From a virus, in IMG/VR virus record IMGVR_UViG_3300006754_000073, positions 1 through 31,762 of that record: a stretch of 31,762 bases of DNA. The stretch is one strand, 5' to 3'. Below the pieces are notes generated by a model. The model was not told the origin of the DNA and searched no databases. It saw nothing but the letters and a program-made list of their open reading frames with translations. Positions 4,765 to 29,523 of the stretch are shown here, piece by piece. The position numbers and the translations under genes are program-made. How positions within the stretch are numbered: the first letter of the stretch is position 1; every line of letters starts with the position of its first letter.

Positions 4765-7431
4765 TTAGTTCACCGGGTCTGGGGCCTCTGACGGATCAAT
4801 CTCAACAAGAGGTATTTTGAACACTCTTCCCGTCTTACGGTCATGCGCATAAAGGCCATGACGATCCTCATTGATTGTCCAGTGTGCATCGTCAGTTTGT
4901 CCATGCAGTTCGATGTCGCCCACATTGGAAACCACCGTATTGATCTCCTTCCATCGCAGCGAAGAAGTACCGCACATCCAGGTGTTGTCGACATCGGGTG
5001 TGAACTCGGGATCCGTACCAGTGTTATCGAGCAGCACAGCTTCGCTGTTCACCGCAATACCCAGGATGTTAGTGCCACCATCGTACAAGCCCATGGCCTG
5101 GTTTCCGACCTGGAGGGCGGGGGCTACCTTTGTCCCGTCCAGCGGCACAGCCACCACATCGTCAGCCACACGAAAGACAATGTCAGCGCCCTGCTGCACC
5201 AGCAGACCAGTACGGCCACCAGACCCAGTCGCAGTCTCTGTGATGTTGACCACAAGTCCTGCGTACCCGGCTGTTCCGGTTTGATTCACCGTGCCTGCAA
5301 CTTGCGCAAAGACCTGAAGGCCGCTGCTGCCCGTGAAACTATTGGCGTTAGTCAAATCCACAGCAGGAGACCCAGTGGTTACACTACCTTGCGCTGTAAG
5401 CGTTCCGTTGGCCTCGATCGTCCCATCCCGTTGCACGGTGATTCGCGTGGTGCCTACGTCTTGCAACTCTAGGATCGGATCAGAGGCAGTGGCGGCGTCT
5501 GTGAGGACCAAGATGTCTGTGCCGGCACATACGCCGCGCATCTCGCCCGCACCACTCCACCGAAAGCCCGTGCTGGGTTCGCTCAAGAAAGAGAGTGAGG
5601 GATCAGTGACATAGCCGTCACTAACGTGCAGTGCTCCCTGAACGTCGATGGCAGCCACCGTGGTTCCAGCGAGCCGCAGATCCATCATGCGCTGATCCGC
5701 GCCGCTACCATTACCGGGCGCCAGTACATCAACTGCCAGCGCGTTCCAGCCATCTCCGACTGTGTTCTGAAGAGTGGGGTCGAACTCCAGCTTACAGAAG
5801 TCGATCTCGCCACTGCCGTTCGCCGCATCGTGGGGGCCGACGCGCATTACCTCTTCGCCGCCCGCGGCAACACGCAGGATGTCGTCGCCGCTGCCGGCCC
5901 ACGTGATCCCAGTGTCGTCATCCGTGAAGCTAGCGATGATCGGCAATCCTGCTCCTGCCGCAGCGACCTGAAGCTGTCCAGTAGACATCAGCTGCATGAA
6001 GCTGGTGCCACCAAGCTGAAGATCCATCAGTTTGTTGGCGCTGCCAGGCACTGAGGTCTCGGTGACGTTGACCTTCAGCCCCGTGTAGTTTCCGCTGGTC
6101 AGTTTGTTGACCGTGTAGGACAGGTCGAAGGCCACCTCGTCACCGGTCGCTGCACTTAGCAGTCCGTCGACCACTGCGGCCTGACCACCTCCGGCGGTGA
6201 TGGTGAGCGTGTCGCCCTCGACGACCACCGCATCTGCTCGGTACCGCGCTGTGGCGGTACCGTCCGTGACCGTGACCCCGTCCTCATTCGCCCCTGCCGC
6301 AGTGAGCGCGATGGGAGTCGCGGACACAAGAGTGACTGTGGGATCCCCATCGTACGCATCTTGAAGAGTAACTGTGCTACCGGGGGCCGCCTGCGGCTCC
6401 CACCGAGCAGCTCCACTATTCCAGGTCAGCACGTAGGCGTTGGTGGGCACCGTAGAAGCAACATCGCGTCCCTGAAGCTTGCCTACGGTGGGATTTGGGT
6501 ATGTACCCGAGAGGTCACCTCCAGCTGCCCCTCCAATCGTTCCTGTGACTAGTGTACCGGTACTATCTACCTCCCATACAGGGGTAGAATCTACCCCCAA
6601 AGAAAGCAGCAACTTGGGCCCAGAAGCTCCAAGTGCAGTGTCAACTACGTTACCCTGGATAAGGGTAAACCCATCAGAGGTAGAGTTAAGTTGTGAAGCA
6701 TCCCCTGCTACGGACAAAAATGACGTGACACCAGATCCGTCTACCGGCGCCCCCAGTACCTCTAGTACAGAGTCTCCGTCTGCTGAAATGATTAGTGAGT
6801 CCCCTGAAACGGAGGAGCTAACACCAGTGCCACTATTTGGTGCGAAAGCATAGCTTGGGGCTGCAGCTGACCCTGACGGAGCTAGTTGAGGCCAGATTCC
6901 ATCTACAGTTGAAAGCTGTGACCAGTCTGTGTTAGTAGGCCCCGACTTAATGTAGGCAACTCCGTCAGACGTCAACAACAGAGATCCCAGCCCTGATGCA
7001 AATCCGGTAACGTCAGGGGCTGCGGACCCGGTGCCGTATACTACGGAGGCCGAACTTGCTGGCCCATAAGACGGAGTGCCTGAGGGTGCAAAGGTAAGAG
7101 CTAGCTGATAATCGAAATCAACAAAGTTAGATTCCCACGGAGAATTGAACGTGCCACGACTACTAAAGATTTCTCCAGCAATATCAAGCTCAAAGGAACT
7201 CCCAGTACTGTTCCTGGTCAGCTCTACTGCCGATGTCCCTGCAGGGGCGTCAAGTACTCTAAAGAGGGTGGCGCTCGCAATAGTACTGTCATTTACTGGC
7301 TCAATGACAAAAGGTAACCCACCGCCAGTTGGACGAACCCGGTTGATCAATAACGAGTCAGCAGTGGGATTTGCCTGCCGCTGGATCGTTTCTGACGGGT
7401 AGTTGGTGCCAATGAATTTCAGATCAGCCAT
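4765..7431 (-). CDS. Long tail-fibre protein
   Basis: 888 residues from ATG 7431. This start is chosen because AGGT lies six bases upstream and the protein then opens with MADLKFIGTNYP. An in-frame extension to 7530 would overlap the upstream gene and adds a basic, Cys-rich peptide unlike the rest. Residues 304-315 (GGDLSGTYPNPT) and 354-363 (VTLQDAYDGD) are phage-fibre hallmarks. Repeating segments follow, such as YTGLKVNVTETS and YAGLVVNITETA. Near the C-terminus VDNTWMCGTSSLRWKEI resembles the segment that precedes S74 chaperone domains in other fibres, but no full chaperone domain follows. The composition (Gly, Thr, Ser, Ala, Asp) suits a trimeric beta fibre. Its job is probably to project the adhesive 587-residue protein encoded next. 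Confidence 0.85.
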   Translation of the reverse strand: MADLKFIGTNYPSETIQRQANPTADSLLINRVRPTGGGLPFVIEPVNDSTIASATLFRVLDAPAGTSAVELTRNSTGSSFELDIAGEIFSSRGTFNSPWESNFVDFDYQLALTFAPSGTPSYGPASSASVVYGTGSAAPDVTGFASGLGSLLLTSDGVAYIKSGPTNTDWSQLSTVDGIWPQLAPSGSAAAPSYAFAPNSGTGVSSSVSGDSLIISADGDSVLEVLGAPVDGSGVTSFLSVAGDASQLNSTSDGFTLIQGNVVDTALGASGPKLLLSLGVDSTPVWEVDSTGTLVTGTIGGAAGGDLSGTYPNPTVGKLQGRDVASTVPTNAYVLTWNSGAARWEPQAAPGSTVTLQDAYDGDPTVTLVSATPIALTAAGANEDGVTVTDGTATARYRADAVVVEGDTLTITAGGGQAAVVDGLLSAATGDEVAFDLSYTVNKLTSGNYTGLKVNVTETSVPGSANKLMDLQLGGTSFMQLMSTGQLQVAAAGAGLPIIASFTDDDTGITWAGSGDDILRVAAGGEEVMRVGPHDAANGSGEIDFCKLEFDPTLQNTVGDGWNALAVDVLAPGNGSGADQRMMDLRLAGTTVAAIDVQGALHVSDGYVTDPSLSFLSEPSTGFRWSGAGEMRGVCAGTDILVLTDAATASDPILELQDVGTTRITVQRDGTIEANGTLTAQGSVTTGSPAVDLTNANSFTGSSGLQVFAQVAGTVNQTGTAGYAGLVVNITETATGSGGRTGLLVQQGADIVFRVADDVVAVPLDGTKVAPALQVGNQAMGLYDGGTNILGIAVNSEAVLLDNTGTDPEFTPDVDNTWMCGTSSLRWKEINTVVSNVGDIELHGQTDDAHWTINEDRHGLYAHDRKTGRVFKIPLVEIDPSEAPDPVN
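6239..6262. repeat. Self-complementary octamer cggtaccg repeated twice
   Basis: cggtaccg occurs at 6239-6246 and again at 6255-6262. Each is itself a palindrome, and together they can pair as an 8-bp stem with an 8-base loop. It lies within the long-fibre gene. Confidence 0.9.
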
Positions 7432-7441: not shown

Positions 7442-7847
7442 ACTGAGCGAGTGCAAAAACGACGAGTGAGACTACAACTCCCAAAACTAGGCCTACACCA
7501 AGAGAAAATAGAGCGCCATTCTCGTCCCACCAGCTATACTGACTCAAGGCCGTAATGCGAGAACGCTGCTCCCCTACAAACTCTTCGTACAATTGGGCAC
7601 TCACTTCGAGTTCTCTGAGGCGAACTCGTGTCTCTACTCTAAGACGGTCTACCTCGGCGGCATCTTCGATGCATTCACCTGCAGCGGCTTCTGAGATTAA
7701 AAGGCCAGTGAAAGGCGCTGGACGCCCTTCCAGCAAGGGCACGGATAGCTGGGGGCCCGTAGGTACCTCTTGAGCGAAACAGAGGCAAGCTTGCCCCGTA
7801 ATAAGGATTACCAAGAGAGTAAAAGCCCTCAAACGACTAGTCACCAC
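7440..7847 (-). CDS. Signal-peptide, C-terminally anchored membrane protein, spanin-like
   Basis: 135 residues. Residues 5-25 form a signal peptide (LRAFTLLVILITGQACLCFA) with likely cleavage after CFA. Residues 34-60 carry PLLEGRPAPFTGLLISEAAA; the pattern 'xGxxAPFxGxLxxxxA' recurs in small phage membrane proteins near lysis genes. Residues 60-100 are a charged helix able to form a coiled coil, and residues 112-134 are a strong transmembrane segment. The topology is periplasmic domain plus C-terminal anchor, the reverse of a classical Rz i-spanin, so the spanin label is tentative. The start is one of two adjacent GTG codons (7847 or 7844) overlapping the end of the acidic-repeat gene. No canonical lipobox is present. 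Confidence 0.68.
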   Translation of the reverse strand: MVTSRLRAFTLLVILITGQACLCFAQEVPTGPQLSVPLLEGRPAPFTGLLISEAAAGECIEDAAEVDRLRVETRVRLRELEVSAQLYEEFVGEQRSRITALSQYSWWDENGALFSLGVGLVLGVVVSLVVFALAQ

Positions 7848-16407: not shown

Positions 16408-17469
16408 TTACCTTGATAGGCTACCATCCCACTCAATCCCTAAACCGTTGCCAAGACTGAGGATTTGGCGGCCATTGTCCACAAATGATCGGTACGGAAT
16501 CTGGTCAGATATGTACCGGATACCCCTCAGATAACCTCGGTTATCCTCCTCATACCCAACCTGTTCCGTGCCGATTGCCACCTTGGCATGGTCCCACCTA
16601 AGGTCGAAGTCACTAGCAGGAAGTGACGTGAACATGTTCTGTTGGGTGACGTCACCATAAGTGATGGCAGAATAGGTGACCTGAGTGGCCAAGCTATCGT
16701 CCAAGCAATCAATTGATGAAAGGGCGCCAAGGGCGCCCAGGGTAGGAGACCCTGCAAGGGAGCACACAAATCTATCGTCGTCAGCGGGGCGCCTACTCTC
16801 ACCAGCACCAAAGTAACCCAACTCAAAAACGCCAGTCCCCGCATTGTCCTGGGACCAGATACGAACATGCGTGTCATCCACCAAAATGTACCACACAGGA
16901 GTGGTGTCAGAGGTCACTGACCTTACAGGAAGTGTGGGGACAGTCCAAGAGCCACTCCACCCAGCGTTAGGGCTTACTTGAATGTCAATAGTGTCAGTAA
17001 CTCCACCTGCCACGGCAAGGTTTGCCTGCCATAGCGGCGTAGCAGACCCAGCTCGGCCCTGTACTACGTACTCCACGGCCCCCACGGACAGAGAAGGATC
17101 TACAATCCGCCACGAAATAGAAGTGTCATCCAAGAAAGATGAGCCATACACTCCTCCCTCTAAGACTAGCTCAGAGCTGGAAGCTAGTCCCACGATCCGG
17201 TAAACGCCGTTGTTATTAAAGTTGCTGTCGTAGACAGTGAGCCACAGCCCAATGTGGCCTGCGTTGAATACGCCAGACGGACTTAGGAATCTGTTAGGGC
17301 TGTCAGAACTAACTTCTCCGTCTGTGCCGGTAGCACTAGGGGACTCAAACACAGCGAGTGGGTTCGCGTATACCCCAGTCCAATCGAGGCTGTATACGAG
17401 GAGTTCCCTTAGGAGAAAGTGAGCAGTTCGCCCATCTTCCTGTAGGCGCTTGATGATCTTGGTGGGCAT
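16408..17469 (-). CDS. Baseplate/adhesin structural protein, paralogue of gene at 11489
   Basis: 353 residues. The N-terminus is basic and helical (MPTKIIKRLQEDGRTAHFLL) and the rest is beta-rich, Gly/Ser/Asp/Val-heavy. The C-terminal half is homologous to the 373-residue protein at 11489; the most diagnostic block is the end, RGYLRGIRYISDQI...LSLGNGLGIEWDG. The gene follows the 1676-residue protein with seven bases between stop and ATG. I recognise no named family. Being duplicated around the coiled-coil island, it is likely a repeated element of the baseplate arm or fibre network. A 7-bp hairpin (gggcgcc, 3-base loop) lies within it at 16722-16738. Confidence 0.75.
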   Translation of the reverse strand: MPTKIIKRLQEDGRTAHFLLRELLVYSLDWTGVYANPLAVFESPSATGTDGEVSSDSPNRFLSPSGVFNAGHIGLWLTVYDSNFNNNGVYRIVGLASSSELVLEGGVYGSSFLDDTSISWRIVDPSLSVGAVEYVVQGRAGSATPLWQANLAVAGGVTDTIDIQVSPNAGWSGSWTVPTLPVRSVTSDTTPVWYILVDDTHVRIWSQDNAGTGVFELGYFGAGESRRPADDDRFVCSLAGSPTLGALGALSSIDCLDDSLATQVTYSAITYGDVTQQNMFTSLPASDFDLRWDHAKVAIGTEQVGYEEDNRGYLRGIRYISDQIPYRSFVDNGRQILSLGNGLGIEWDGSLSR

Positions 17470-17472
17470 TAA

Positions 17473-20400
17473 TTAGTCTCTCTTGAGAAGAGGACGTCCG
17501 ACAAGGTGAAAGGCGTCCAGAGCTGATCCTACGGCAACTACAGAAATACTACTCAATGTGTTTACACCCACAGAGACGCCCATGTATACGGAAGAACCAG
17601 GTGTTCTCATCGCGTATGGAAGTGCGGTTAGCACTCCGGAGGCGGGGCCCTGTGTAGTGCCGTATGACCTAACAGTCCTTCGGTTAACTGTGTAGTTACG
17701 CGGAAGCTCAAGCCTTGAAAGACTACCAAAGGGAGGCACCACGTTGAACGCCAGTTCCCTGATAGTAGAGTCAGACCCAGGGAGGTAGGCTAAGAAGTTC
17801 TCCCCATAGAGGTCGGAGGTTGCAGTTTCAACACGTAGAGTGGAACCGCGGGCCGGTGATAGGGGGTAGGAGGAACGACCAGGAGAAATGTATTTCCCCT
17901 CCAAGTCAGTAAACTCTGTGGTCCAGCTGGCGGGTACTTCGAACACCGCTCCCCGGTGTAGCGTGTTACCTTCATTCTCCCCGCCCGACAAGTCTGTCAC
18001 GTGGGTTGAGTAATAGTACGTTGCATCATCAAACTGGCTGTCTACTGCAGTAAACCCAAATCTAAGCCCATACAGTCGAACATCTCCTGCAAATGTCGTT
18101 TCGAGGCGCAGACGGTAGTCGTACACATCTGTGAGGGCAAAGGTAGGATTTGCATCCTGCCACACTGCTTTGGTATTACCTTCCACAGTCGCAAGGTTTT
18201 CCACTGTGAAAATTCCCTGCAGGACAGAAGTCCAAGTACTAGACCCTGGAAGCCGACGTTCTAACCAAACTGAAAGTGGTGTTGAGGAGGCATCGGAATA
18301 CACATCAGCGTACACAGAAACAAGCTGATCAAAAGAAGCAGACCCGACAAGGGGAAAGACCAAGCTTGCTGCACTGAGTGTGGCCTGGAAGTAAGACTCG
18401 GTCGCAGAGGGGGTTTGATACGCCCATGTAGTCCCTGAGCTGGTAAGGCCCGAGCCAAGGTCAATGCTACGAACATGGGTATCAACGCGATCTGCGGGTG
18501 CGGGACGGATTGTTCGATAATCCAGAAGTCCTTCTGCCACATATTGCAAGGTGACAGACGAGGGCTTTGGATCTGCAGGGTAAGGGAGCCTCTCAGATAT
18601 AGCTACGGGGGGTGATTCTCCCGTACGGTATCTGGGATCTCCTAGATCCTCACGAACGAAACCTGAAGATGAGAGGTACCTAATCGCCCCGCTGTCTAGA
18701 CCACTTGCGTTGATACTACCAATATCCTGACCACGGGTGCTGGGTTCCGCGAAAGTACCAGGGAAAGAGACATTGTTCCCAGGAACACTAGGGTGAAGGA
18801 AGGGGGCGTTCACACCAGCGGTTGTAATAACTTGGTCCCCGATTGTCTCTACGCGTCCCAGGAGATAGTTCTCCAACGCGGACGATATGCCTTGGTAGGG
18901 CGAGTACGTGTACCATACACGCAACACATCAGCACTAAGAAGGGGGCGTGCAACAGGGCTAACTACTCTGATTTGGGGTTCCAAGGTGGCAGTGTAGTCT
19001 CTACGTACTGAATAGAACGTAGAGCGCGGACCAATTGTATGCTCCGACGTGGCGGCGTTATTGAACGCCACACCGTAACTCAACAACTGCGATCCGTCCA
19101 TCCCGACAGTAACTAGGTCGGCCCCATCGGTCCAGTAGGTGTACGAGCCAGCCTCGTGCACCAAAAACTGGGCGTCTGCATTTAACCTATTGTTCGCAGG
19201 CGTAGCGGCTGCCGCATTTGGAGACCGAATTCCCAAAGGTGAAAGCCCTACCTCAGAGAAGGATACGACTTCCCACCCTTGGTAGGTCTGTGGTACATGA
19301 GGAAAAATCGTTGGACGCTCCACTGTGATGGAGGAGGCGCCGGCCCTGTGAGGTACGTCGGCGTAGCCCCAGGCATACGGGCCTCTAACCTGCTTCGAGG
19401 CGGGGTAAACTTCGACCCAAGAATCAACGAGGTCACCAGAAACCATTACTTCAAGATCAACGGTAACAGCGCCTGTACCGGCGGTAAACTCCACCTCAAT
19501 GCGCTCTAGTCCAGGGGATACTCCCGTAACATCTGTTAGCCTGGCGTACCGCAAGGCAGGCAAGCCAGACACGGTGTCGGTGTATTCTCCGTCGTGAATA
19601 TGGTACGAAGCGATACCGTACATGCGAATGGCGGTGGAAGAGGAGGCCAGCTCAGGTAAAGCCGCCAGTATGTCTGCCTGAGTGATCTCGGCAACAGGAG
19701 GGGCACCCGCCAGGGTCACTGTTACGTGGGCAGTGAGTGCCCCCACATGTACCCTGCGTCCGTTGACTTCGGCACGATGTACTGTCTCCGGCACAGCAAA
19801 CAAAGAATGATTATTGAGATAGGCTAAGTCCCTATCACGGTTTGGCTTGACTGCCCAGAAGTTACAGTAGACATCCATGTTAGCCGACACAGCGCCAGGC
19901 AGGGTCACATCCATGACAATCTGTGTTACGTGACCAGCACCGTTTGAAACGGTGCTGGTCTCAGTAATTGAGCAGGCACGTAGATTGAGGTCAAAATCCT
20001 CACGAGCTAGAACTGGGAGGCCACCTGGCCCAAACGCATTAGGGGAAAAAGTGAAGTTGGTTGTAGCAAAGTTAAGTGCGATGTTTTCATCTGTCAGAGA
20101 CAGGTGATAACCAGCGGGGGCGGTAACAGTGAGAACCCCAGCACTTCCACCTGAGTAAGTCCAAGCAAAGGAACCAGACAGATCAGAACGATTTACTGTG
20201 GGGTTTGAGAAACTCCAGCACAGTAGATCTGCCTCATCCGACTCTGACCAGATTCTGCGCATACCGTCTGGTGCGGCAGCAGGCGCAAAATGCCCAGTCA
20301 GAGTACTGGACGCAATACGGTCTACATGAAGCAACTTGGTACCCGCCACAAGAGCTGACGGGTCGTAAGGGTTGACAACAAACTTTGTGTCTAGCTCCCC

Positions 20401-22503
20401 ACGAACAAGCTTTTGAAAAGACTCGTGTAGGACTGCATCTACATCAGATGCGTCTTCAAGAATGGAGTGCCGTAGATCTAGGACTTCCTGCGGAAAGGGT
20501 AGACTGGCGGACTGATTTGGTAGCCCTGGATAAGCTGATCTATCTGCACCATTCGGGTTGGTAGACGGATTGTAAGCAGCAGTATTTCGTCGATGGACTA
20601 ATGCAACAGGTATAGCCCAAATCTCAGAGTCTGCGTTTTGGTCTTCGTGGGCCAAGGCAGGACGTGACCACAGGCCAGGATCAGTTCCTGACTTAGTGTA
20701 GCCTGCAGCAGTCATGCTGTCGTCCTCGTCCAGCTCGGACGTAAGCTCGTACGTCCTGAACACTCCGATCCAAGGTACGGATCGGAGACCTTGTCTTGGG
20801 TACCGCCGCAACTCAGATGGACCAGTAAAAGCTACGTTTCCTGGGGGGTGGGCGGTGGGGAAGACTTCTAGTGCTACAAGATCTCGTCGACCCGAAGCAG
20901 CCGGAGGACTTGGTAGGTCAACAGTTACACTTGAACCATCCAAACTTAAGTCGCGCCCAAGAACTCGAATTACCGAGTCATGAACTGTTAGAGTCCCAGC
21001 TCCATAACTGAAGGGGGTTCCCATGCCGCGCACCCAGCCTGACGGATAAAGGTCAGCGTTTGCAAGGTTCGTACTGTTTGTTTGGGCCACAGTACTTGCG
21101 GCAGCAGCTCCTCCGCCCAGCTCCGCACGCGGTGCAACATCAAACACATACCTGGAATCTTCATCATCAGGACGCGTTTCCTGGATGTAAGCAGAAGGTC
21201 CAGTTTCGGCCGTAGTTCGCCTGACGATTAGCAGCGGAATGGCCCAAGATACGTCATCGTAGGCTGAAGTGGTTGCGGCAGCGGACCAGATTCGCTGGTC
21301 CGTCTGGTCCGTAGCTACAGAAAAGACATTTCCGTCTATGTTTGTAACACTTGATGCTGCGAGTGAGGTCTCGTGCAAGGCACCGCTGGCAACGCCAGCA
21401 ACGGACGAAATCTGCCAGCGTGTAACCACAGTGGTGGTAGAGTCAATCTGCTCAATCTTAGAGAAACCGTAGTTGGGACTGGTATGTCTCTCTGCAAGGG
21501 TTTCAAGCGCTGCTTGAATCGTACTAAGGGTACTTGTGCCGCCTACAATAAAATCATTGTCCCACGTTGTGGTGGCAGGGTCGGCAACCTCCTCTCGCCA
21601 AACTTCCATATACACGAGGTCGTACCTGCCGGCGGCAGGGGCTGTCAGACTGAGTTCTGTGTATGGAGTCTTGACAAAGTGGCCATTTATCACTGCATGG
21701 AGTGGTTGCAAATCAATTTGATTTGCAACCGAAGGCTGTGTCTGTACTGGTAGTCCTTCAGCCCCATAATGGGAAAACCCACCACTACCTGCGGTTACAG
21801 AGTAGTCATTATCGATTGAACCAACAATACCAGACCCGTTGAATGCCCTTGTCTTCTGAGCCTCTAAAGCATCCGATGCGGCCTGTGCGTTGCCGATGGC
21901 AACAGCACCGCCAGAAAGAACCCATGAGCTGGTAGAGGCTTCCCACACAAACACCTGATGGGTGTCTAAGGTAAGACGGACATCGCCATCACGATTCTGC
22001 TCAGTAGGGAGCGACGCGAAGTCTGCAACTGGCTTCTTCCATCCAGCGAGACCCAGCTTTTCGCCCCAGTCCCCCACAGAATAGTCAACAACCACACCAA
22101 CGTCAGTCAGGGCCGACGTGCCATAGGGCAGCTCAAACCGTGCAAAGGTGATGAAGAAGTCGTTGTGAACTGAAGTTGTCCACGTTGTTTCTGGGACAAT
22201 CTGCAGGTTTGCAATCGGGGAGGTACCGACCCGGTATTCAAGGTGCAGTACCAAGTAGCTGACCCGCGGGACACCCACTGTGCTGGAGGCAAGGACTGTC
22301 CGAGTCTCGCTATCATCCGAAATTGCAACCATCCCATCATACCCAGAGGCAATGAAAGGATCTACGGTGACCTGCAGACTGGTAGATGACAGGGTTAGAG
22401 CACCCCCATCAAAGATGGCCCTATCCACAATCCGGGCCTGAGTTGCGTTCAGGTCCAGCGTGCTGTCAGGGTTTCGGAAAGCTAGGAGGGGCCTAAGGGC
22501 CAT
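17473..22503 (-). CDS. Giant baseplate/adhesin protein with tandem domain duplication
   Basis: 1676 residues, the largest gene here. Residues 157-200 (KPVADFASLPTEQNRDGDVR, then VFVWEASTSSWVL) match a common fibre module. Two related domains follow: copy one has YDLVYMEVWREEV (294-306) and WAIPLLIVRRT (420-430); copy two has RRDLVALEVFPT (539-550) and WAIPVALVHRRN (629-640). 'RRDLVxLEVW...WAIPxxLVxRR' is seen in large phage tail or virion proteins. The remaining 1000 residues are beta-rich, with no catalytic motif visible. The start ATG 22503 is preceded by TAGGTG. The position after the gpI-like and collar-like genes suggests a baseplate-attached host-recognition scaffold. Several perfect inverted repeats lie inside this gene. 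Confidence 0.8.
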   Translation of the reverse strand: MALRPLLAFRNPDSTLDLNATQARIVDRAIFDGGALTLSSTSLQVTVDPFIASGYDGMVAISDDSETRTVLASSTVGVPRVSYLVLHLEYRVGTSPIANLQIVPETTWTTSVHNDFFITFARFELPYGTSALTDVGVVVDYSVGDWGEKLGLAGWKKPVADFASLPTEQNRDGDVRLTLDTHQVFVWEASTSSWVLSGGAVAIGNAQAASDALEAQKTRAFNGSGIVGSIDNDYSVTAGSGGFSHYGAEGLPVQTQPSVANQIDLQPLHAVINGHFVKTPYTELSLTAPAAGRYDLVYMEVWREEVADPATTTWDNDFIVGGTSTLSTIQAALETLAERHTSPNYGFSKIEQIDSTTTVVTRWQISSVAGVASGALHETSLAASSVTNIDGNVFSVATDQTDQRIWSAAATTSAYDDVSWAIPLLIVRRTTAETGPSAYIQETRPDDEDSRYVFDVAPRAELGGGAAAASTVAQTNSTNLANADLYPSGWVRGMGTPFSYGAGTLTVHDSVIRVLGRDLSLDGSSVTVDLPSPPAASGRRDLVALEVFPTAHPPGNVAFTGPSELRRYPRQGLRSVPWIGVFRTYELTSELDEDDSMTAAGYTKSGTDPGLWSRPALAHEDQNADSEIWAIPVALVHRRNTAAYNPSTNPNGADRSAYPGLPNQSASLPFPQEVLDLRHSILEDASDVDAVLHESFQKLVRGELDTKFVVNPYDPSALVAGTKLLHVDRIASSTLTGHFAPAAAPDGMRRIWSESDEADLLCWSFSNPTVNRSDLSGSFAWTYSGGSAGVLTVTAPAGYHLSLTDENIALNFATTNFTFSPNAFGPGGLPVLAREDFDLNLRACSITETSTVSNGAGHVTQIVMDVTLPGAVSANMDVYCNFWAVKPNRDRDLAYLNNHSLFAVPETVHRAEVNGRRVHVGALTAHVTVTLAGAPPVAEITQADILAALPELASSSTAIRMYGIASYHIHDGEYTDTVSGLPALRYARLTDVTGVSPGLERIEVEFTAGTGAVTVDLEVMVSGDLVDSWVEVYPASKQVRGPYAWGYADVPHRAGASSITVERPTIFPHVPQTYQGWEVVSFSEVGLSPLGIRSPNAAAATPANNRLNADAQFLVHEAGSYTYWTDGADLVTVGMDGSQLLSYGVAFNNAATSEHTIGPRSTFYSVRRDYTATLEPQIRVVSPVARPLLSADVLRVWYTYSPYQGISSALENYLLGRVETIGDQVITTAGVNAPFLHPSVPGNNVSFPGTFAEPSTRGQDIGSINASGLDSGAIRYLSSSGFVREDLGDPRYRTGESPPVAISERLPYPADPKPSSVTLQYVAEGLLDYRTIRPAPADRVDTHVRSIDLGSGLTSSGTTWAYQTPSATESYFQATLSAASLVFPLVGSASFDQLVSVYADVYSDASSTPLSVWLERRLPGSSTWTSVLQGIFTVENLATVEGNTKAVWQDANPTFALTDVYDYRLRLETTFAGDVRLYGLRFGFTAVDSQFDDATYYYSTHVTDLSGGENEGNTLHRGAVFEVPASWTTEFTDLEGKYISPGRSSYPLSPARGSTLRVETATSDLYGENFLAYLPGSDSTIRELAFNVVPPFGSLSRLELPRNYTVNRRTVRSYGTTQGPASGVLTALPYAMRTPGSSVYMGVSVGVNTLSSISVVAVGSALDAFHLVGRPLLKRD
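19932..19960. repeat. Perfect 14-bp inverted repeat, 1-base spacer, inside giant gene
   Basis: The left arm gaccagcaccgttt (19932-19945) and the right arm aaacggtgctggtc (19947-19960) are exact reverse complements around a single g. The site lies inside the 1676-residue gene and encodes the segment TSTVSNGAGH. In single-stranded RNA the 1-base spacer opens to a small loop, giving a strong hairpin of roughly 12 pairs. A perfect 29-base odd palindrome is not expected by chance in 32 kb. Confidence 0.96.
20763..20787. repeat. 9-bp inverted repeat with 7-base loop inside giant gene
   Basis: ctccgatcc (20763-20771), loop aaggtac, ggatcggag (20779-20787). The arms are exact reverse complements. 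It lies in the coding sequence for RSVPWIGV. Confidence 0.93.
21282..21302. repeat. 8-bp inverted repeat with 5-base loop and an extra right arm
   Basis: cggaccag (21282-21289), loop attcg, ctggtccg (21295-21302). An additional ctggtccg follows directly (21304-21311), so two alternative stems can form. The repeated arms encode TDQTDQR in the giant gene. Confidence 0.9.
21704..21730. repeat. Perfect 13-bp inverted repeat, 1-base spacer, inside giant gene
   Basis: The left arm ggttgcaaatcaa (21704-21716) and the right arm ttgatttgcaacc (21718-21730) are exact reverse complements around one t. The site is within the giant gene and encodes VANQIDLQ. This is a second long odd palindrome in the same gene, with an unrelated sequence. 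Confidence 0.96.
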
Positions 22504-22515
22504 AGTCGCACCTAA

Positions 22516-22992
22516 TCAGAGTTGGACGAAAACTTCGTAGACAAACCGATCACCGGCAGCCTTATACTTAAGCGGAAAGTTTGCAATGGCAAAGAGGAAC
22601 TGAGTTCCAATCTCGGGGTCTCCCGCGACAGGCGAATACACCACAGTGCCAAGGAGGCAAAGAGAACTCACTGCCCCTGTAGCCTCGCCCGCTTCGACAG
22701 CACATGTGTAGACCGGACAAGAAAAACTAGCGAACCCGACAGTATCAACTGCGTCTACCAGAGAGCAGCCACCAGTTGTGGTGATACTCTCGATCGGTGA
22801 TCCCTCTGGACCACAGTAACATCCCGTCCTACCAGGATCGGGAGACAAGGCCAAAGTTGGATCCACAGGGTCATGGCCGTTGGCGCCGATGACGAACGAG
22901 TCCACGACGAAAGACTTGCCAGAGGCAAGCATTTCCCCAATTCGGGCTTTTCCCTGATTCGTGACTAGGGCTACGGCTTCAATTGTGGGCAT
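22516..22992 (-). CDS. Collar/fibre N-terminal-like protein (copy 1), Cys-rich
   Basis: 158 residues. The opening (ALVTNQGKARIGEMLASGKS, then FVIGANGHDP) has the tail-collar fibre pattern 'vTxxGxaxiaxxxxxG...vxxGxxGhdP', and the end (VVYSPVAGDPEIGTQFLFAI) matches its paralogue at 10544. It carries six cysteines (C58, C60, C76, C92, C97, C112) in an inserted middle section that the paralogue lacks, suggesting a metal site or disulfide-stabilised loop. In P2-like phages a gene after gpI encodes the fibre that attaches to the baseplate, and this gene follows the gpI-like gene. The start ATG 22992 has GGTGAG upstream. Confidence 0.76.
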   Translation of the reverse strand: MPTIEAVALVTNQGKARIGEMLASGKSFVVDSFVIGANGHDPVDPTLALSPDPGRTGCYCGPEGSPIESITTTGGCSLVDAVDTVGFASFSCPVYTCAVEAGEATGAVSSLCLLGTVVYSPVAGDPEIGTQFLFAIANFPLKYKAAGDRFVYEVFVQL

Positions 22993-23064: not shown

Positions 23065-24537
23065 TTATGGAGCCAGCAGAGTGGCGGAAGCTGAGATGGG
23101 AACCTCGACATCGATAGTGGCGAGAGATGCACCCAAACCAACAGAGGCAGGACGCCCAAAGCAGCAGTCAAGGTCCTCGAACAGTCGAGCATCTGGGTGC
23201 ATGGTGTCTAGGCATGACCCAGAGTCGAACCGGTCCACTAGGTGTGTTCCGAACCAACCGTCACAGAGCGGGTCTGCCTCCTCACACGAATCCAAGGGGA
23301 TCCCAGCGTCAAAGGCAATAAGCCCTCGATACTGAACAACCACTGGGTGGGAAGGTGGAGCCACGTCCAACACCAGCACACTGGTCCCAGGGACGACGTA
23401 ATGGGGAGGAAATGAAGTTCCCGCCGGATCATTGATAGATACTGAAACTACCGACTCAACAGGGTTAGCCAGTGTAACGTACGGAGCGCCTAATACCCCA
23501 GTGACTGCCCCTGTAGTGTCAATCGACACAGCCGAGAAGCTTTCGGAGTATGGCAGGATAGAATCCAGACGAGTCCTGCCCAATGCCAGCTCAACAGTTG
23601 TGTCGAACGGGTACGACCACGCACAGAACGCAACCTCTGATTCAACCAGCGTTGTAACACTGACGACTATAGGGAGACAATCCTGAGTGATAAGTGCCAG
23701 AAGGGAGCACTCTCTTGTGTCGAAGTCAAAACTGTGACTCTCGACAGTCCCCATGAAGTTAACTACGACCCGCTCATCGGAAACAGAGACTAGTTCTGCA
23801 ATAGATCGTGGGAGGTTGTCCATCAGCTTGATGAAGGCGGCCCATGTTCCTACGCACAGGTTTGGGTGCCAAACGTGGAACTCAAAGCCGCCCTCGTCGT
23901 GGGCCGCCGAATACACAGGGAGAACTGCAGGATCAAAGAACTCAAGGTCTACCTGCGTCGGGCGCACCACTGGGGTGGTGTTGGATGCTGCAGTGACGAT
24001 GTCGTCTACACCACGAGTGGTGGCGGTCTCGTTGATGAGCGCCCGGACAGCTAGCTTCCCGGCCAGGATGCGCATAGCCCGTGTGGGCGGCAACATCTCC
24101 TGGAAACCAATCTGGTGTTCCACAGCTCGCAAAGACAACTCGCTATTGAGCTGCCTTTCGGCGTCTTCAAACTTCGAATGAACGTTGAAGAAGTACTCGT
24201 CGGCGAAAGCCTTTAGGAAAGTGGCATAGTTGGTGGCCACCACCTTGATGAAGAACTCAGAGTCAGTTGTTCGGGCGAAGATTTCATTCGTCCCCGCCGT
24301 CAGCTGAAGCTGAATTTGCTGCCGCTGGCTGAGCAATACAGTTCGAAGGACTTCCTTACTGTCGATGAAGATGGTGACATTGTCACCCACATCTCCCTCA
24401 AGGATGAACGAGGTGGTACCCTCGATAAGAGGTAGAGTGAACGTAGACCTATGCCACTGTGTGCCTGAAGGGACACCAGCGAGAAGCTCTGAGTAAAGGT
24501 CATCAGACGATGACTCGGCCGGGTAAATGCGAATCAT
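23065..24537 (-). CDS. Baseplate protein, gpI-like
   Basis: 490 residues. Residues 1-110 are a beta domain (TSFILEGDVGDNVTIFIDSK). Residues about 110-215 are helical, with LNSELSLRAVEHQIGFQEML and RILAGKLAVRALINETATTR, which resembles the helical core of tail protein I (gpI) family members. The middle has HVWHPNLCVGTWAAFIKLMD and FDTRECSLLALITQDCLP, followed by a beta-rich, Cys-containing C-terminus (DSCEEADPLCDGW, LDCCFGRP). It follows the gpJ-like gene, with two small genes between, matching the J-I order of P2-like baseplates. The family label is moderate because the similarity is recognised by pattern and order only. It could also be a gp7-like wedge protein. Confidence 0.62.
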   Translation of the reverse strand: MIRIYPAESSSDDLYSELLAGVPSGTQWHRSTFTLPLIEGTTSFILEGDVGDNVTIFIDSKEVLRTVLLSQRQQIQLQLTAGTNEIFARTTDSEFFIKVVATNYATFLKAFADEYFFNVHSKFEDAERQLNSELSLRAVEHQIGFQEMLPPTRAMRILAGKLAVRALINETATTRGVDDIVTAASNTTPVVRPTQVDLEFFDPAVLPVYSAAHDEGGFEFHVWHPNLCVGTWAAFIKLMDNLPRSIAELVSVSDERVVVNFMGTVESHSFDFDTRECSLLALITQDCLPIVVSVTTLVESEVAFCAWSYPFDTTVELALGRTRLDSILPYSESFSAVSIDTTGAVTGVLGAPYVTLANPVESVVSVSINDPAGTSFPPHYVVPGTSVLVLDVAPPSHPVVVQYRGLIAFDAGIPLDSCEEADPLCDGWFGTHLVDRFDSGSCLDTMHPDARLFEDLDCCFGRPASVGLGASLATIDVEVPISASATLLAP

Positions 24538-24538
24538 T

Positions 24539-25018
24539 TCAGTGGGTTAGAAGCTGAGCACGCCGCTCTAGGAAGTACATGAGGCTCTCCAGCTCACTCG
24601 CAGTGGAGGCCAGACGGTCCTCCAACCCAAAAGTAAGCCCAGTGGACCCGCCAATCTCAGCCGCAATCTCACGGAAGTTGTGTACCAGACTCTTGACTTC
24701 CTCGAAAACCAAGACGGCGAGTGCGTCAGGATTCTGGAGCGCCCCCTCCAGGTGGGGCATGATGCTGTCCATGCGCTCTCTGACATATGTGGCCTGAGCC
24801 AAGGGGCAGACTACGCGATCGTTGAACTCCGAGTGGGCGGTCAATACCTCTGCCAGCGGGTCCAACAACTCATCTAGCTTCTCGTATACTACCTTGTAGA
24901 GACCATGGTCCCCAGGGGCAGAGGGGCCAAATACCCGCCAGTGGGCGGTCTGGCTGACCATGGAGAGAAAACGCAGTTCCCAAACAAGGTTTGCAAGAAT
25001 TTCGAGGTTCATGCTCAT
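24539..25018 (-). CDS. Dps/ferritin-like protein
   Basis: 159 residues, the normal Dps length. The motif TAHWRVFG (H26, W27) is followed by H38, D53 and E57. The spacing H+12, +27, +31 equals that of E. coli Dps H51, H63, D78 and E82, the ferroxidase residues; only the fifth ligand, D67, is replaced by Lys (K42). The rest is a long helix bundle (YEKLDELLDPLAEVLTAHSE and EEVKSLVHNFREIAAEIGG) ending in helices like those of Dps (GLEDRLASTASELESLMYFL). Dps proteins form dodecamers, oxidise iron with peroxide, and often bind DNA. No basic N-terminal tail for DNA binding is present. It overlaps the 79-residue gene by ATGA inside the baseplate operon, so it could be a virion component, a host-stress protector, or a fold reused structurally. 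Confidence 0.74.
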   Translation of the reverse strand: MSMNLEILANLVWELRFLSMVSQTAHWRVFGPSAPGDHGLYKVVYEKLDELLDPLAEVLTAHSEFNDRVVCPLAQATYVRERMDSIMPHLEGALQNPDALAVLVFEEVKSLVHNFREIAAEIGGSTGLTFGLEDRLASTASELESLMYFLERRAQLLTH

Positions 25019-25254
25019 CGGGGAACTCCACGAGGTGGAATGTAGTTCTCGACACTCTTGAAATCAGAGTCGGAGACTGTGCCGGTCCCCTTGTCAAGAT
25101 CATCTACATCCTTCTTTTTCCGTACGTAACGCTCTCCCGTAGGACCGCTGTAACGATCCTCTTCAGGTAAGGGTGCGTCCTCGGGGTGGGGAAGGTTGTC
25201 CACGTTGGGGATCGGCCCGTTGTTGGACACAGTTGAGAAGTCTAGAAGGCTCAT
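25015..25254 (-). CDS. Small Pro/Asp-rich hypothetical protein
   Basis: 79 residues, probably disordered: NVDNLPHPEDAPLPEEDRYS, then GERYVRKKKDVDDLDKGTGT. It begins MSLLDFSTV and ends YIPPRGVPR. The ATG overlaps the gpJ-like gene stop and the TGA overlaps the Dps-like start, both as ATGA, so it is firmly embedded in the operon. No family is recognised. Disordered short proteins at this position may link wedge components. Confidence 0.62.
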   Translation of the reverse strand: MSLLDFSTVSNNGPIPNVDNLPHPEDAPLPEEDRYSGPTGERYVRKKKDVDDLDKGTGTVSDSDFKSVENYIPPRGVPR

Positions 25255-26651
25255 CGGCGTCTCTCAATATTAATGCTGTCAGTACCGGCAACGGGGTACT
25301 CGAAGGGTCGAAGCTCCACTACGTCTACCGGCAAGGTGCCGGTCAGCTTCTTGGTAAAGCGTGTCAGCGTAACGGCACTTACCCCAGCAACCTCTGACGC
25401 CAAAGTAGTCTTGAGGATGGAGGGATAGAGGACACCACTGAACTCGCCAGTGTTGATGTAGTTAGAGGTCGAGTTGAAGGCTGAAGATACAGCGTCTGTG
25501 GCGTCAAAGCTGGACAGCACCTGAACAAGAAGCTCAGCTTCAATCTCTACAGGGATGGCCTCCCTAATGAGAATTTCGTTACGGTACAGCTGGGTCGACA
25601 GAGTATCGGCGTACGCTTGGACGTCAGTCACAAGACGATTGTAGGTATACGTGACCTCGATCGTAGAATTGTACCCAGGGATAGAATCCAACTCGACGCG
25701 ATCATCGGCCTGAGTTGAGCGGCGAGTCTGGTCTGTAGAGTCAGTTACAAGACTAAACCCCACGCTGTTTCCATCGACTGTGACAGAGCTAATGGCGAGT
25801 ACGGGAGCGTTGGCCAAAGAGAAAGAGCGCCGAACACCATCACCGATGAATGTGGCAGTGGCTTCCTCAGATCGCTCTCCAATGATGTACACGTCCCACG
25901 CCGAGCGACGGGTCCTTCGCCTGAAATTCTCAGTGTCAGAGGAGTAGATTATGGCAACGTCTGTGATGAGCGATGGCGCGAAGTTCATGATCAGGGACTT
26001 GAATCCATCACCTGAACCTTGAGCAGTGCCGTTGAACTTAGAGCGAATACGGGTGCCGAACCTGGAGTTGGACTCAAAGGGAGAGCCTCCCTCGATACGC
26101 TCACGGTTAACAACACCATCAATACCAGGGATGCTGTCCTTGATGACGCGAACTCGGTTGGGTGGGACATCAAAAGCATCCCCCGATCCCAGAGCTATGA
26201 CGGGAACACGGACTTCGTACCGGCGAAGTGAGGCGTTGTAGTAGGTGGCACGAGACGAGCCTCGGATGAAGGCATCACGTGTAGTCCTGTAGGAGATGGT
26301 ACGATCTGATGTAGAGACGACTGTCCCCGCAGGGATGGCGGTTACCTCGGAGGGCGACAGAGCCCGAGAGGAGTAGAACACTACGTGACCACTAGCAGCT
26401 TCCCCTGCCGAACGTCGCAGGCCATGATTGGCCCCATACAATTGAAGAACTGACGGGTCCCTGGAAAGTACGTAGTCGAGTGAGTAACGACGGGAAACGT
26501 CGTCGTACATCAGCTCGGTTCTCCGAACGACACGGGACCCCGGGGCGACGAAGATGTCGTAGATCGGCCCCTTAACCGTATCAATGGACGAGTCCTGGTT
26601 CTCAATGGACTGCGCGATTGAAGATTCGATCTGGTCTATCGTACGTGCCAT
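25251..26651 (-). CDS. Baseplate J / gp6-like wedge protein
   Basis: 466 residues. The N-terminus is helical (ESSIAQSIENQDSSIDTVKG). Residues 104-115 (AIPAGTVVSTSD), the strand SYRTTRDAFI, and the block VRVPVIALGSGDAFDVPPNR (about 147-166) form the characteristic baseplate-J core ('xIPAGTxxxT...VxVxAxxxGxxxNV'). GSPFESNSRFGTRIRSKF (189-206) and the helical/beta end (RNEILIREAIPVEIEAELLV, about 375) also fit. Family members form the ring of wedges that gives the baseplate its six-fold shape and triggers sheath contraction. It directly follows the gp25-like gene (TAA ATG), as in P2-like W-J order. Confidence 0.85.
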   Translation of the reverse strand: MARTIDQIESSIAQSIENQDSSIDTVKGPIYDIFVAPGSRVVRRTELMYDDVSRRYSLDYVLSRDPSVLQLYGANHGLRRSAGEAASGHVVFYSSRALSPSEVTAIPAGTVVSTSDRTISYRTTRDAFIRGSSRATYYNASLRRYEVRVPVIALGSGDAFDVPPNRVRVIKDSIPGIDGVVNRERIEGGSPFESNSRFGTRIRSKFNGTAQGSGDGFKSLIMNFAPSLITDVAIIYSSDTENFRRRTRRSAWDVYIIGERSEEATATFIGDGVRRSFSLANAPVLAISSVTVDGNSVGFSLVTDSTDQTRRSTQADDRVELDSIPGYNSTIEVTYTYNRLVTDVQAYADTLSTQLYRNEILIREAIPVEIEAELLVQVLSSFDATDAVSSAFNSTSNYINTGEFSGVLYPSILKTTLASEVAGVSAVTLTRFTKKLTGTLPVDVVELRPFEYPVAGTDSINIERRR

Positions 26652-27149
26652 TTAGAAGGTTCTCGTGTCGTCAGTAACAATTGATCCCGGTAGATTTGGC
26701 CGAGCGCCCGGGGGAAGTTGGTGACGCAGGCTAATCGTGAACGATGTCGTCAGCTTATCAGGCCCTGCGAACGGATGAATGTCTACAAAGAATACATAGC
26801 CAGTTTTTGAGACCTGAAAGACGCGGATAGCCCCTATGTCGGAAATAGCCTCAAAGCCAGACAACTGGTCAGGTCGTTTAGTTTGGAGGTCTCGCAGGCG
26901 CTCAACAGCATCCCGGACCATGGACTTGATCCGGCCCCGAGTGATCATGCCAAAGCCACCAAACTCAGGTGAGTTGGTAAACAGGTTGTCAGTCAGCAGA
27001 GAACCAAACCCACGACGAGAGTCGTACTCTGTCATAAGGGCGTCCGCTGAGTCTTGAGAAAGCTTCTCAATACCCTCCACCCAGTAAGCTCGACCGTCCG
27101 AGTCCTTTAGTACGATGTCGCCATCTGCCTTTTTGATCGTCTTAGACAT
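26652..27149 (-). CDS. gp25/gpW-like baseplate wedge protein
   Basis: 165 residues from ATG 27149, which overlaps the upstream TGA as TGATG; a longer in-frame start at 27179 lies wholly inside the upstream gene and is rejected. The centre (EYDSRRGFGSLLTDNLFTNS, residues 41-60) resembles the 'R.GfGs.L...LF' motif of the gp25/gpW lysozyme-like family, followed by a helix (RGRIKSMVRDAVERLRDL) and beta strands (GAIRVFQVSKTGYVFFVDIH). gp25-type proteins start sheath polymerisation in the baseplate and are not enzymatically active. The position directly before the gpJ-like gene is the strongest support. Overall similarity is modest and the protein is somewhat longer than typical. Confidence 0.72.
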   Translation of the reverse strand: MSKTIKKADGDIVLKDSDGRAYWVEGIEKLSQDSADALMTEYDSRRGFGSLLTDNLFTNSPEFGGFGMITRGRIKSMVRDAVERLRDLQTKRPDQLSGFEAISDIGAIRVFQVSKTGYVFFVDIHPFAGPDKLTTSFTISLRHQLPPGARPNLPGSIVTDDTRTF

Positions 27150-27691
27150 CAATCGTACTCCACAAGTAGGTCGCCCCAAGATTCAAGCTCGCGGCGAAGG
27201 GTCGAAATACCACCCTCAGGAACGGCCTGCTCAAGTACAGTCAACACGGAAAGGTCATAACTGAACCTGTCACGCTGCTCCACAATACCGCCAAGAGCCG
27301 TATTTGTTGCCTCGTTCAGGAGATCAACCTCAGTGATGTCCTCGAACCCGTCTGACATGTTCTGCAGTGTGGACTTGGTCTCGTCATAGATTTCGGAGAA
27401 GGACTCCATCCTCGTCAGCTTTGCTTCTTCGTTCGCTTTCCGCGCGGAGACGTATTCCGCCAGAAGGCGGTCACGGTTGTCGTTTGAGTTGGGGTCGTTC
27501 TCCAGAACTGTCTGGAAAAACTGGCTTACCTGGGTCCGCTCATCAATGGAGTTGAGGATAAGGAAAGTCTCGAAATCAGCACTGATCTCCTCGTCAAACC
27601 CGGACGTAACCCGGTAGAGCGACGGCCTATTGCCATCACCACGAGCAACTGATGAAACCAGCTCAGCCTCCTCTAGTGTAAGACGTCTCAT
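27149..27691 (-). CDS. Hypothetical helical baseplate-region protein
   Basis: 180 residues, charged and mainly helical (SARKANEEAKLTRMESFSEI, LESWGDLLVEYD), with Asp/Glu in excess. No family is recognised. The start (ATG 27691) overlaps the TGA of the 611-residue gene as ATGA and the stop overlaps the gp25-like start, so translation is coupled on both sides. In contractile-tail baseplate operons helical proteins in this interval serve as hub-wedge connectors, which would be consistent, but is inference only. Confidence 0.68.
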   Translation of the reverse strand: MRRLTLEEAELVSSVARGDGNRPSLYRVTSGFDEEISADFETFLILNSIDERTQVSQFFQTVLENDPNSNDNRDRLLAEYVSARKANEEAKLTRMESFSEIYDETKSTLQNMSDGFEDITEVDLLNEATNTALGGIVEQRDRFSYDLSVLTVLEQAVPEGGISTLRRELESWGDLLVEYD

Positions 27692-29523
27692 GATGGAATA
27701 AACCCAGCGACAGCGCGCAGCTGAAGGAGACGGGCCAGCTGTGTGACCTGAGAGGGAGCACAGCCCTCAGAGGCAGAGGATCCAGTTGGGAACGCAAGTG
27801 AGGTTGAGGAGCGGCGCTGCAGGAGTTGCGTACGCAGCGACCTAGCGGTCGACTTGATCGCCATACGTAGGCGACGAAGGGTCTCACCAACAGCCTCAAC
27901 AACAGCAGTCACTACCTCCAGGATATTCTGGAAGGACTCCAGGGACACTGAAAGCTCTAGTGGCATGTCAAATCCCTCATCCTCCAGGATGGCCCCCTGA
28001 CACTCTTGACCTAGGCCTGGTACGTCGGGGTACTGCCCTGATGCTGCACTGCTGAGGAAAGAGCCCATACAGGATGCGGCCCCCACGTTGGAGACAAGGC
28101 CCCTAACCCTCTGAATGTAGCCAGTCACAGTGTTGGACTGAGCCTCCACTACAGAAATGATTCCGTCAACAAGGTCGGCAGTAGACACGCCGGGTGTTCC
28201 GGGGCTTCCCGGGCCACCGATGCCACCGATGCCAGGGACTGATCCTGAAACTGTACCTAGTGAAGACAGAGGGGAAAACCCGCTACCAAAGAGACAGTCC
28301 ATCACCCCGGAGTCTACGTTCTCAAACACCAGGTTTAGGACAGACTGAACGTTGGTCAGGTTCGTCAGTACAGGTGCAATAGCCTGTTGTATCTCCTTGA
28401 CGAGCTGATCCACTACCTGCAGAGCAGACATGATCGAAGCAGCCGCCCCCTCAATGAACTCCTCAACCTCCCCTGTCTCTGAGGCAGCTCTACCACTCAG
28501 AAGCTCGGCTTTGATGCCGTACTGGAAAGTGCGGCTGATATCCATCGTAGAAAACAGCGCCAAAGCAGGTGATGAGTAAGACTTGACCCCGGCTGATGTC
28601 TTTGCGCCCACTGCAGGGGTGAGGGAATCATAGATCGAGTCGACGATGGCGGTTGTACCTGATGTTAGAGTCACCTTACCAGGCTCGCGTGCAAGGAAGG
28701 CATCAGCGTCATCGCCAAGAACGGTAAGAGCCCTGATGATGTCACGGGGGTCACGAATGACCTCTACAGTCATTCGGCCGGTGGAACGCCCGGCCAACGA
28801 GGCAGCAAACTCCGCGTTGGTCAAACCGAGGCGAACGGCCTTAGCACGGTTGCTAGTGCTGACGGTGGGCTCCCCGAGCCAGAATACGTAGATCTCGACG
28901 TCGTCCTCGGAGATGCCAACAGAAGCTGCGGCACTTTCGATGGACCGATCAAATCCAAGCGTAATTCGCTCCTCCACCCGAACTTCAGGACTGCAGCTGG
29001 TCGCCTCCGTCAGAGACACTTTCAAGTAGGTAGGCGCCATGACGAAGAAGGGGGCAAACAGGTCAAAGGGAACGTAATCCCTTGAGGGTCCCTCGATCAG
29101 GGGTAGCTCTCCCAGGGTAGGAACTGCATCCATCAAGCTCTCAATCCCGCCCGCTAGGTTTGCGAGGCGAGCCACAGGACCGAGGTCTGTGTCTCCAGGA
29201 GGAATGATTCGTCCGTTCACTACGTTCAGCCCGTAGGCTGACATGAGTGAAGTTTCTAGCGATGTGTCGTCTGCACCTGCAACGACCCCCGAGGCACTAA
29301 GAATGTCGTCCGTGGACGTATTGGCGATAGCCAGTACACGATCCATCGACGATTTTAGCGCAGCGTTGAAGTCAGATTCAACTGCTTCTGCAGTCGCTGA
29401 CAGGGCGGCGATCTCCGCACGTGTCTCAACAAGAATGTCTCCCAGCTTCTCCTGAAAGTCAAAGAGGGCTGAGTCGATCTCGGCGTTAGACCTGCAGCGA
29501 ATAGTAGGTTTGGTAAATGGCAT
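27688..29523 (-). CDS. Large baseplate-region structural protein
   Basis: 611 residues. Residues 13-75 are helical (DSALFDFQEKLGDILVETRA). A beta-containing central domain follows, at about 150-290 (VRVEERITLGFDRSIESAAA, VEIYVFWLGEPTVST). Residues about 350-400 are long helices (IMSALQVVDQLVKEIQQAI). Residues 431-445 (GIGGIGGPGSPGTPG) form a short collagen-like Gly-rich linker. The C-terminus is helical with Cys pairs and a basic tail (RRLRMAIKSTARSLRTQLLQ). No named family is recognised. The position between the small virion proteins and the gp25/J-like genes supports a baseplate or hub role. Its helix-rich ends suggest oligomer contacts. Confidence 0.7.
   Translation of the reverse strand: MPFTKPTIRCRSNAEIDSALFDFQEKLGDILVETRAEIAALSATAEAVESDFNAALKSSMDRVLAIANTSTDDILSASGVVAGADDTSLETSLMSAYGLNVVNGRIIPPGDTDLGPVARLANLAGGIESLMDAVPTLGELPLIEGPSRDYVPFDLFAPFFVMAPTYLKVSLTEATSCSPEVRVEERITLGFDRSIESAAASVGISEDDVEIYVFWLGEPTVSTSNRAKAVRLGLTNAEFAASLAGRSTGRMTVEVIRDPRDIIRALTVLGDDADAFLAREPGKVTLTSGTTAIVDSIYDSLTPAVGAKTSAGVKSYSSPALALFSTMDISRTFQYGIKAELLSGRAASETGEVEEFIEGAAASIMSALQVVDQLVKEIQQAIAPVLTNLTNVQSVLNLVFENVDSGVMDCLFGSGFSPLSSLGTVSGSVPGIGGIGGPGSPGTPGVSTADLVDGIISVVEAQSNTVTGYIQRVRGLVSNVGAASCMGSFLSSAASGQYPDVPGLGQECQGAILEDEGFDMPLELSVSLESFQNILEVVTAVVEAVGETLRRLRMAIKSTARSLRTQLLQRRSSTSLAFPTGSSASEGCAPSQVTQLARLLQLRAVAGFIPS

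Follow-up and report, generated by a model that had tools for sequence, protein, structure and literature searches.

A Dps-family gene in a tail-baseplate operon

The stretch of phage DNA analysed here (31,762 nucleotides (nt); hereafter the window) carries a gene of the Dps, or mini-ferritin, family at positions 24539-25018 of its minus strand. This open reading frame (ORF) begins with ATG and encodes a protein of 159 amino acids (aa). It belongs to a minus-strand operon, the products of which are, in order, 384, 150, 203, 611, 180, 165, 466 (J-like), 79, 159 (Dps), 490, 158, and 1676 aa long. Intergenic gaps in this operon range from -4 to +2 nt as far as the 490-aa gene; the Dps gene itself shares 4 nt with the upstream 79-aa gene, and a 1-nt gap separates it from the downstream 490-aa gene.

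A preliminary description of this DNA had located the gene between gpJ-like and gpI-like genes. The slot in a baseplate operon and the J-like gene were both upheld: the 466-aa protein (25251-26651, minus strand) matches PF04865 (E 1.8e-14) and the baseplate wedge family phrog_6 (E 3.8e-22), and in the PDB it weakly matches TRI-2 (CD1371; E 0.0095). However, a 79-aa ORF (25015-25254, minus strand) intervenes between the J-like and Dps genes. Its low-complexity product, which is always encoded directly upstream of Dps, has a conserved LDF near the N-terminus and an IPPRxVPR-like C-terminus; this protein and its relatives have the look of a linear tether that docks at both ends. As for the conserved 490-aa protein (23065-24537, minus strand), encoded directly downstream of Dps, the label "gpI-like" is unproven, because Pfam, PHROG, and PDB profile searches linked it to no known wedge protein, and its own structure model was poor (pLDDT 47).

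The other annotated members of the operon also lie on the minus strand. The operon-conserved 165-aa protein (26652-27149) is gp25-like by place only and has no profile match; nothing was found when profiles of this and the 490-aa neighbour were compared with the PDB. The 180-aa protein (27149-27691) has no assigned function, and the 611-aa tail protein (27688-29523) has a weak tape-measure-like match in its homologue from contig L065. Beyond the 490-aa gene, the 158-aa protein (22516-22992) weakly matches the N-terminus of phage tail-collar fibres (PF12571, E 0.02), and the 1676-aa protein (17473-22503) is fibre-like by size and place, with no Pfam match. By eye, the 158-aa protein appears related to another collar-like protein of 191 aa (10544-11119); likewise, ORFs of 373 and 353 aa (11489-12610 and 16408-17469) appear related and have similar LGNGxGxxW ends. 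These two gene pairs suggest a duplicated fibre cassette. An ORF of 135 aa at 7841-8248 bears a ESDEESDEESDEE acidic repeat.

Membership of the Dps family

In the translated ORF, H26-W27 is followed at +12, +27, and +31 by H38, D53, and E57, respectively. As the preliminary description had stated, this is the exact spacing of H51-W52, H63, D78, and E82 in E. coli Dps. Translation of the window in all six frames contains the pattern HW-x10-H-x14-D-x3-E a single time, and 2 of 300,000 shuffled versions of the 159-aa protein showed it; it is therefore not a chance feature.

A Pfam search with the single sequence gave no ferritin match, and other single-sequence searches were weak (NCBIfam Dps, E 0.02; PDB Dps, E about 0.2), while the comparison with PHROG 3636, a "DNA binding protein" family, gave an E value of 5.6e-6. 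By contrast, when a profile of the six-member clade described below was compared with the PDB, every match at E<0.01 was a Dps-family chain (best E 2.5e-6), the best sequence matches being DNA protection during starvation protein 2 (6tgt/2c2j) and neutrophil-activating protein. Profile-profile alignment (hhalign) with eight phage Dps proteins, one of which (L036) lies above the Pfam ferritin cut-off, yielded a probability of 96.8% and an E value of 3e-10 over residues 18-67.

A monomer model predicted by AlphaFold2, with 35 related phage sequences included in the input, had Dps topology (pLDDT 91, pTM 0.86), with helices at residues 5-28, 34-61, 72-94, 97-123, and 132-155. Its four-helix bundle is ferritin-like: a long additional helix (72-94) lies between B and C, and the C-terminus lacks a fifth helix. 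All 50 PDB matches listed by Foldseek were Dps, with TM scores of 0.47-0.76 and E values of just 3e-3 to 2e-2; the best viral match was an annotated Dps (E 2.3e-4). The helix pattern that had been read from the sequence was thus borne out, and a fold other than a ferritin bundle, named at the outset as an outcome that would refute the assignment, was not what the model showed.

The 159-aa protein is a true but divergent member of the Dps family, an identity backed by PHROG 3636, the clade profile, hhalign, and the predicted fold. That it is no Dps at all, merely a helical bundle in which HW...H...D...E arose by coincidence, as the missing Pfam match might suggest, is scarcely credible given the rarity of the pattern among shuffles, and is effectively refuted by the Foldseek, profile-profile, and clade-profile results. 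With bacterial Dps (PF00210; E. coli Dps, Deinococcus Dps2, HP-NAP) it shares the helix topology and the H-W...H...D...E spacing. It differs from them in having K (K or G in its clade) where the D67 position is Asp or Glu, in the long helix between B and C, in lacking a basic DNA-binding tail, and in being encoded in a phage baseplate operon.

A fixed genomic slot and a conserved metal site

The clade as known comprises six contigs, all of them metagenomic and together spanning five diverged lineages only. L001 (388 kb) is a near-copy of the window, with 98% Dps identity, and L064 (95 kb), L065 (392 kb), L071 (424 kb), and L074 (164 kb) were found by scanning with the proteins of the neighbouring genes. 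The gene order J-like, short PPR-tailed protein, Dps, 490-aa protein is common to all six, so that the position proposed as a check is indeed kept in related phages. In the reverse direction, a scan of the viral collection with the clade Dps profile returned those six contigs only; the same profile found no relative in bacterial and archaeal genomes. The Dps gene is single-copy in every contig of the clade.

This gene diverges about as much as its operon neighbours. Dps identity to the four diverged contigs was about 51-57%. When genes of the operon were compared, Dps gave 51-54%, and the neighbours (gp25-place, J, 79-aa, and 490-aa) gave 57-61%; between the window and L065 it was 53.5% for Dps, versus 58-61% for the same neighbours. 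A dN/dS of 0.033 (window versus L001) indicates purifying selection, and the six Dps proteins form one long branch with support of 100/98. The fixed slot, the co-divergence, and the single supported clade mark the Dps gene as an old resident of the operon and not a recent insertion. Within a single clade of huge phages, the tail-baseplate operon has this gene as a constant, single-copy member.

Of the five canonical ferroxidase ligands, four are present and invariant. H26, W27, G31, H38, Y45, D53, and E57 were unchanged in 35 of 35 aligned phage Dps-like proteins, although the conservation of HW and GDH is partly due to selection, because the scan patterns that fetched most of these proteins required an HW or GDH stretch; D53, E57, and Y45 were absent from the patterns. 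H26, W27, H38, D53, and E57 are also kept in both extra clade members, i.e., in 37 phage relatives altogether. Loss of the H/H/D/E set in close homologues, the second outcome that was to count against a Dps, was therefore not observed. The fifth ligand, D67 in E. coli, is replaced by K42, and is K or G in the clade. It had been singled out as the only difference, which is correct, yet the position is variable in phage Dps generally: among the 35 aligned proteins it is G in nine, E in eight, Q in six, A in six, D in three, K in two, and S in one. Loss of the acidic residue is therefore common in phage Dps.

In the canonical ferroxidase center, one monomer supplies two His and an Asp, and its partner contributes Asp and Glu; a water molecule links acidic residue 67 to the metal of site B (PMC6675082). 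Site A thus appears intact in the window protein, and site B is probably weakened. The cyanobacterial His-type proteins NpDps4 and TeDpsA provide a precedent for losing the D67 ligand: residue 67 is non-acidic and no metal is bound there, and yet iron is still bound and oxidised (PMC6675082). In these proteins, however, D78 is also changed to His and a third-subunit His assists (PMC6675082), whereas the window protein keeps the D78 equivalent (D53).

The window protein has a pI of 4.9, a net charge of about -11, and no K or R among its first 15 residues; a basic DNA-binding tail, which only some Dps have and which does not define the family, is absent. DNA coating through such a tail is therefore unlikely, and the earlier suggestion that the protein protects DNA is weakened in that sense.

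Possible roles of Dps-like proteins in this and other phages

The fixed place of the gene among baseplate genes makes it probable that Dps is produced along with the tail, of which it may form a part. On our preferred reading, to which we assign a probability of about 0.5, the gene encodes a metal-binding mini-ferritin that is produced late together with the baseplate and is probably attached to it. Through translational coupling, the 159-aa protein would be produced late, in step with baseplate parts, and would form a Dps-type dimer, perhaps a cage. At an inter-subunit site, H26 from one subunit and D53 and E57 from the other would bind a metal (site A), either Fe(II) or a different ion; site B would be weakened by the replacement of its Asp by K or G. 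The protein may then serve as a metal-binding accessory piece on the tail or a tail-assembly intermediate, rather than as a DNA coat. Overall, we would divide the weight into about 55% for a tail-associated protein and 35% for a free late ferroxidase, the rest going to a purely structural reuse of the fold. A bolder version, in which the baseplate of this huge-phage clade carries a working, metal-loaded mini-ferritin, a Dps adapted to a tail site that would bind iron or scavenge peroxide on the cell surface or in the course of penetration, is rather doubtful.

Iron in phage tails has reportedly been proposed under the "Ferrojan horse" idea, and to our knowledge no dedicated family of iron-handling proteins has previously been linked to it. 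The Dps clade offers a concrete, conserved candidate for such a link, and its genomic position leads one to expect that production is late and coupled to that of the tail.

Positional conservation alone can also reflect late expression instead of physical association. A soluble late Dps ferroxidase might bring down the levels of peroxide and free Fe(II) as the cell dies and so shield phage DNA and particles, the baseplate operon supplying just the late timing; we regard this as a serious but less probable explanation. It agrees with the invariance of the four metal ligands. Moreover, soluble phage Dps are known, and have been explained as lowering Fe(II) and peroxide stress (PMC8008677, PMC6669764): "Gratiaviridae" and 36 other gut phages carry DPS (PMC8008677), and the Dps genes of Lactobacillus phages adjoin DNA-metabolism genes (PMC6669764). 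We found Dps-like genes adjoining nucleotide-metabolism and replication genes in Lahexavirus and Grimontviridae, and beside DNA polymerase in L016 and L021. In LR745208, the Dps-like gene lies near SET-like, chaperonin-like, and RtcB-like genes (ORFs read by eye), far from the J-like gene of that genome (265.5 kb versus 480.7 kb). Where phage Dps-like genes lie in DNA-metabolism regions, as many do, a soluble role is likely. Against such a role for the window protein stand the exact slot kept in six contigs, the near-zero gaps that bracket the gene, and the degraded site B.

Phage Dps proteins of PHROG 3636 (Grimontviridae, Lahexavirus), "Gratiaviridae", and Lactobacillus plantarum phages (PMC8008677, PMC6669764) resemble the window protein in being phage-encoded and in sharing its invariant residues. 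However, those of their genes with readable neighbourhoods lie beside nucleotide or DNA-metabolism genes (PMC6669764), whereas the window clade is fixed in the baseplate operon and forms a long, well-supported branch of its own.

It is improbable that the ferritin fold is reused here as a purely structural wedge or linker, with a metal site that is vestigial or holds a structural metal only. The operon position, the co-divergence with tail genes, the loss of the acidic residue at the D67 position (K/G), and the long helix 72-94 would all fit such a reuse. Nevertheless, H26, W27, H38, D53, and E57 are strictly invariant at about 52% identity, which a structural role would not demand unless a structural metal were bound.

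The late, baseplate-linked mini-ferritin that we favour would not be the only phage Dps encoded among structural genes, since three further Dps-like genes among those fetched sit in virion modules. In L014, 4-nt overlaps tie such a gene (4285-4800; PF00210 above cut-off) to a 284-aa gene on one side and to an HK97-gp10-like gene on the other, after which comes the tail sheath. In L015, it lies directly after portal and head-morphogenesis-like genes (5728-6414), and in L038 near a head-tail adaptor gene (5830-6558). Phage Dps have until now been described as helpers against oxidative stress, and these cases show that they also turn up repeatedly within virion modules; searches of the open-access literature yielded no previous account of a Dps encoded in a baseplate operon or present in a virion.

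A Dps-like domain can also be part of a larger protein, forming the C-terminus of proteins of 882 and 991 aa in L009 (3793-6441) and L010 (3403-6378), respectively. In a viral structure library, Foldseek likewise found Dps-like folds within proteins named prohead protease. The N-terminal part of the L009/L010 fusion protein holds an HExxH-type motif, HELVHAVQ, and genes adjoining the L009 fusion gene bear similar HELVH motifs. PF19174 (DUF5856), a short family of unknown function, matches L009, L010, L025, L030, L064, and L065, in every case below its cut-off; the matches to the clade members L064 and L065 are weak, those to the fused L009 and L010 proteins are stronger, and the window protein is unmatched. 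PF19174 may, judging from these sequence matches, be a Dps-type family. Finally, a groEL-like chaperonin gene is located no more than 2.5 kb from the Dps-like genes of L003/L025 and L011; it was identified by phrog_5725 (E 5e-70) in L011 and by eye in L003/L025.
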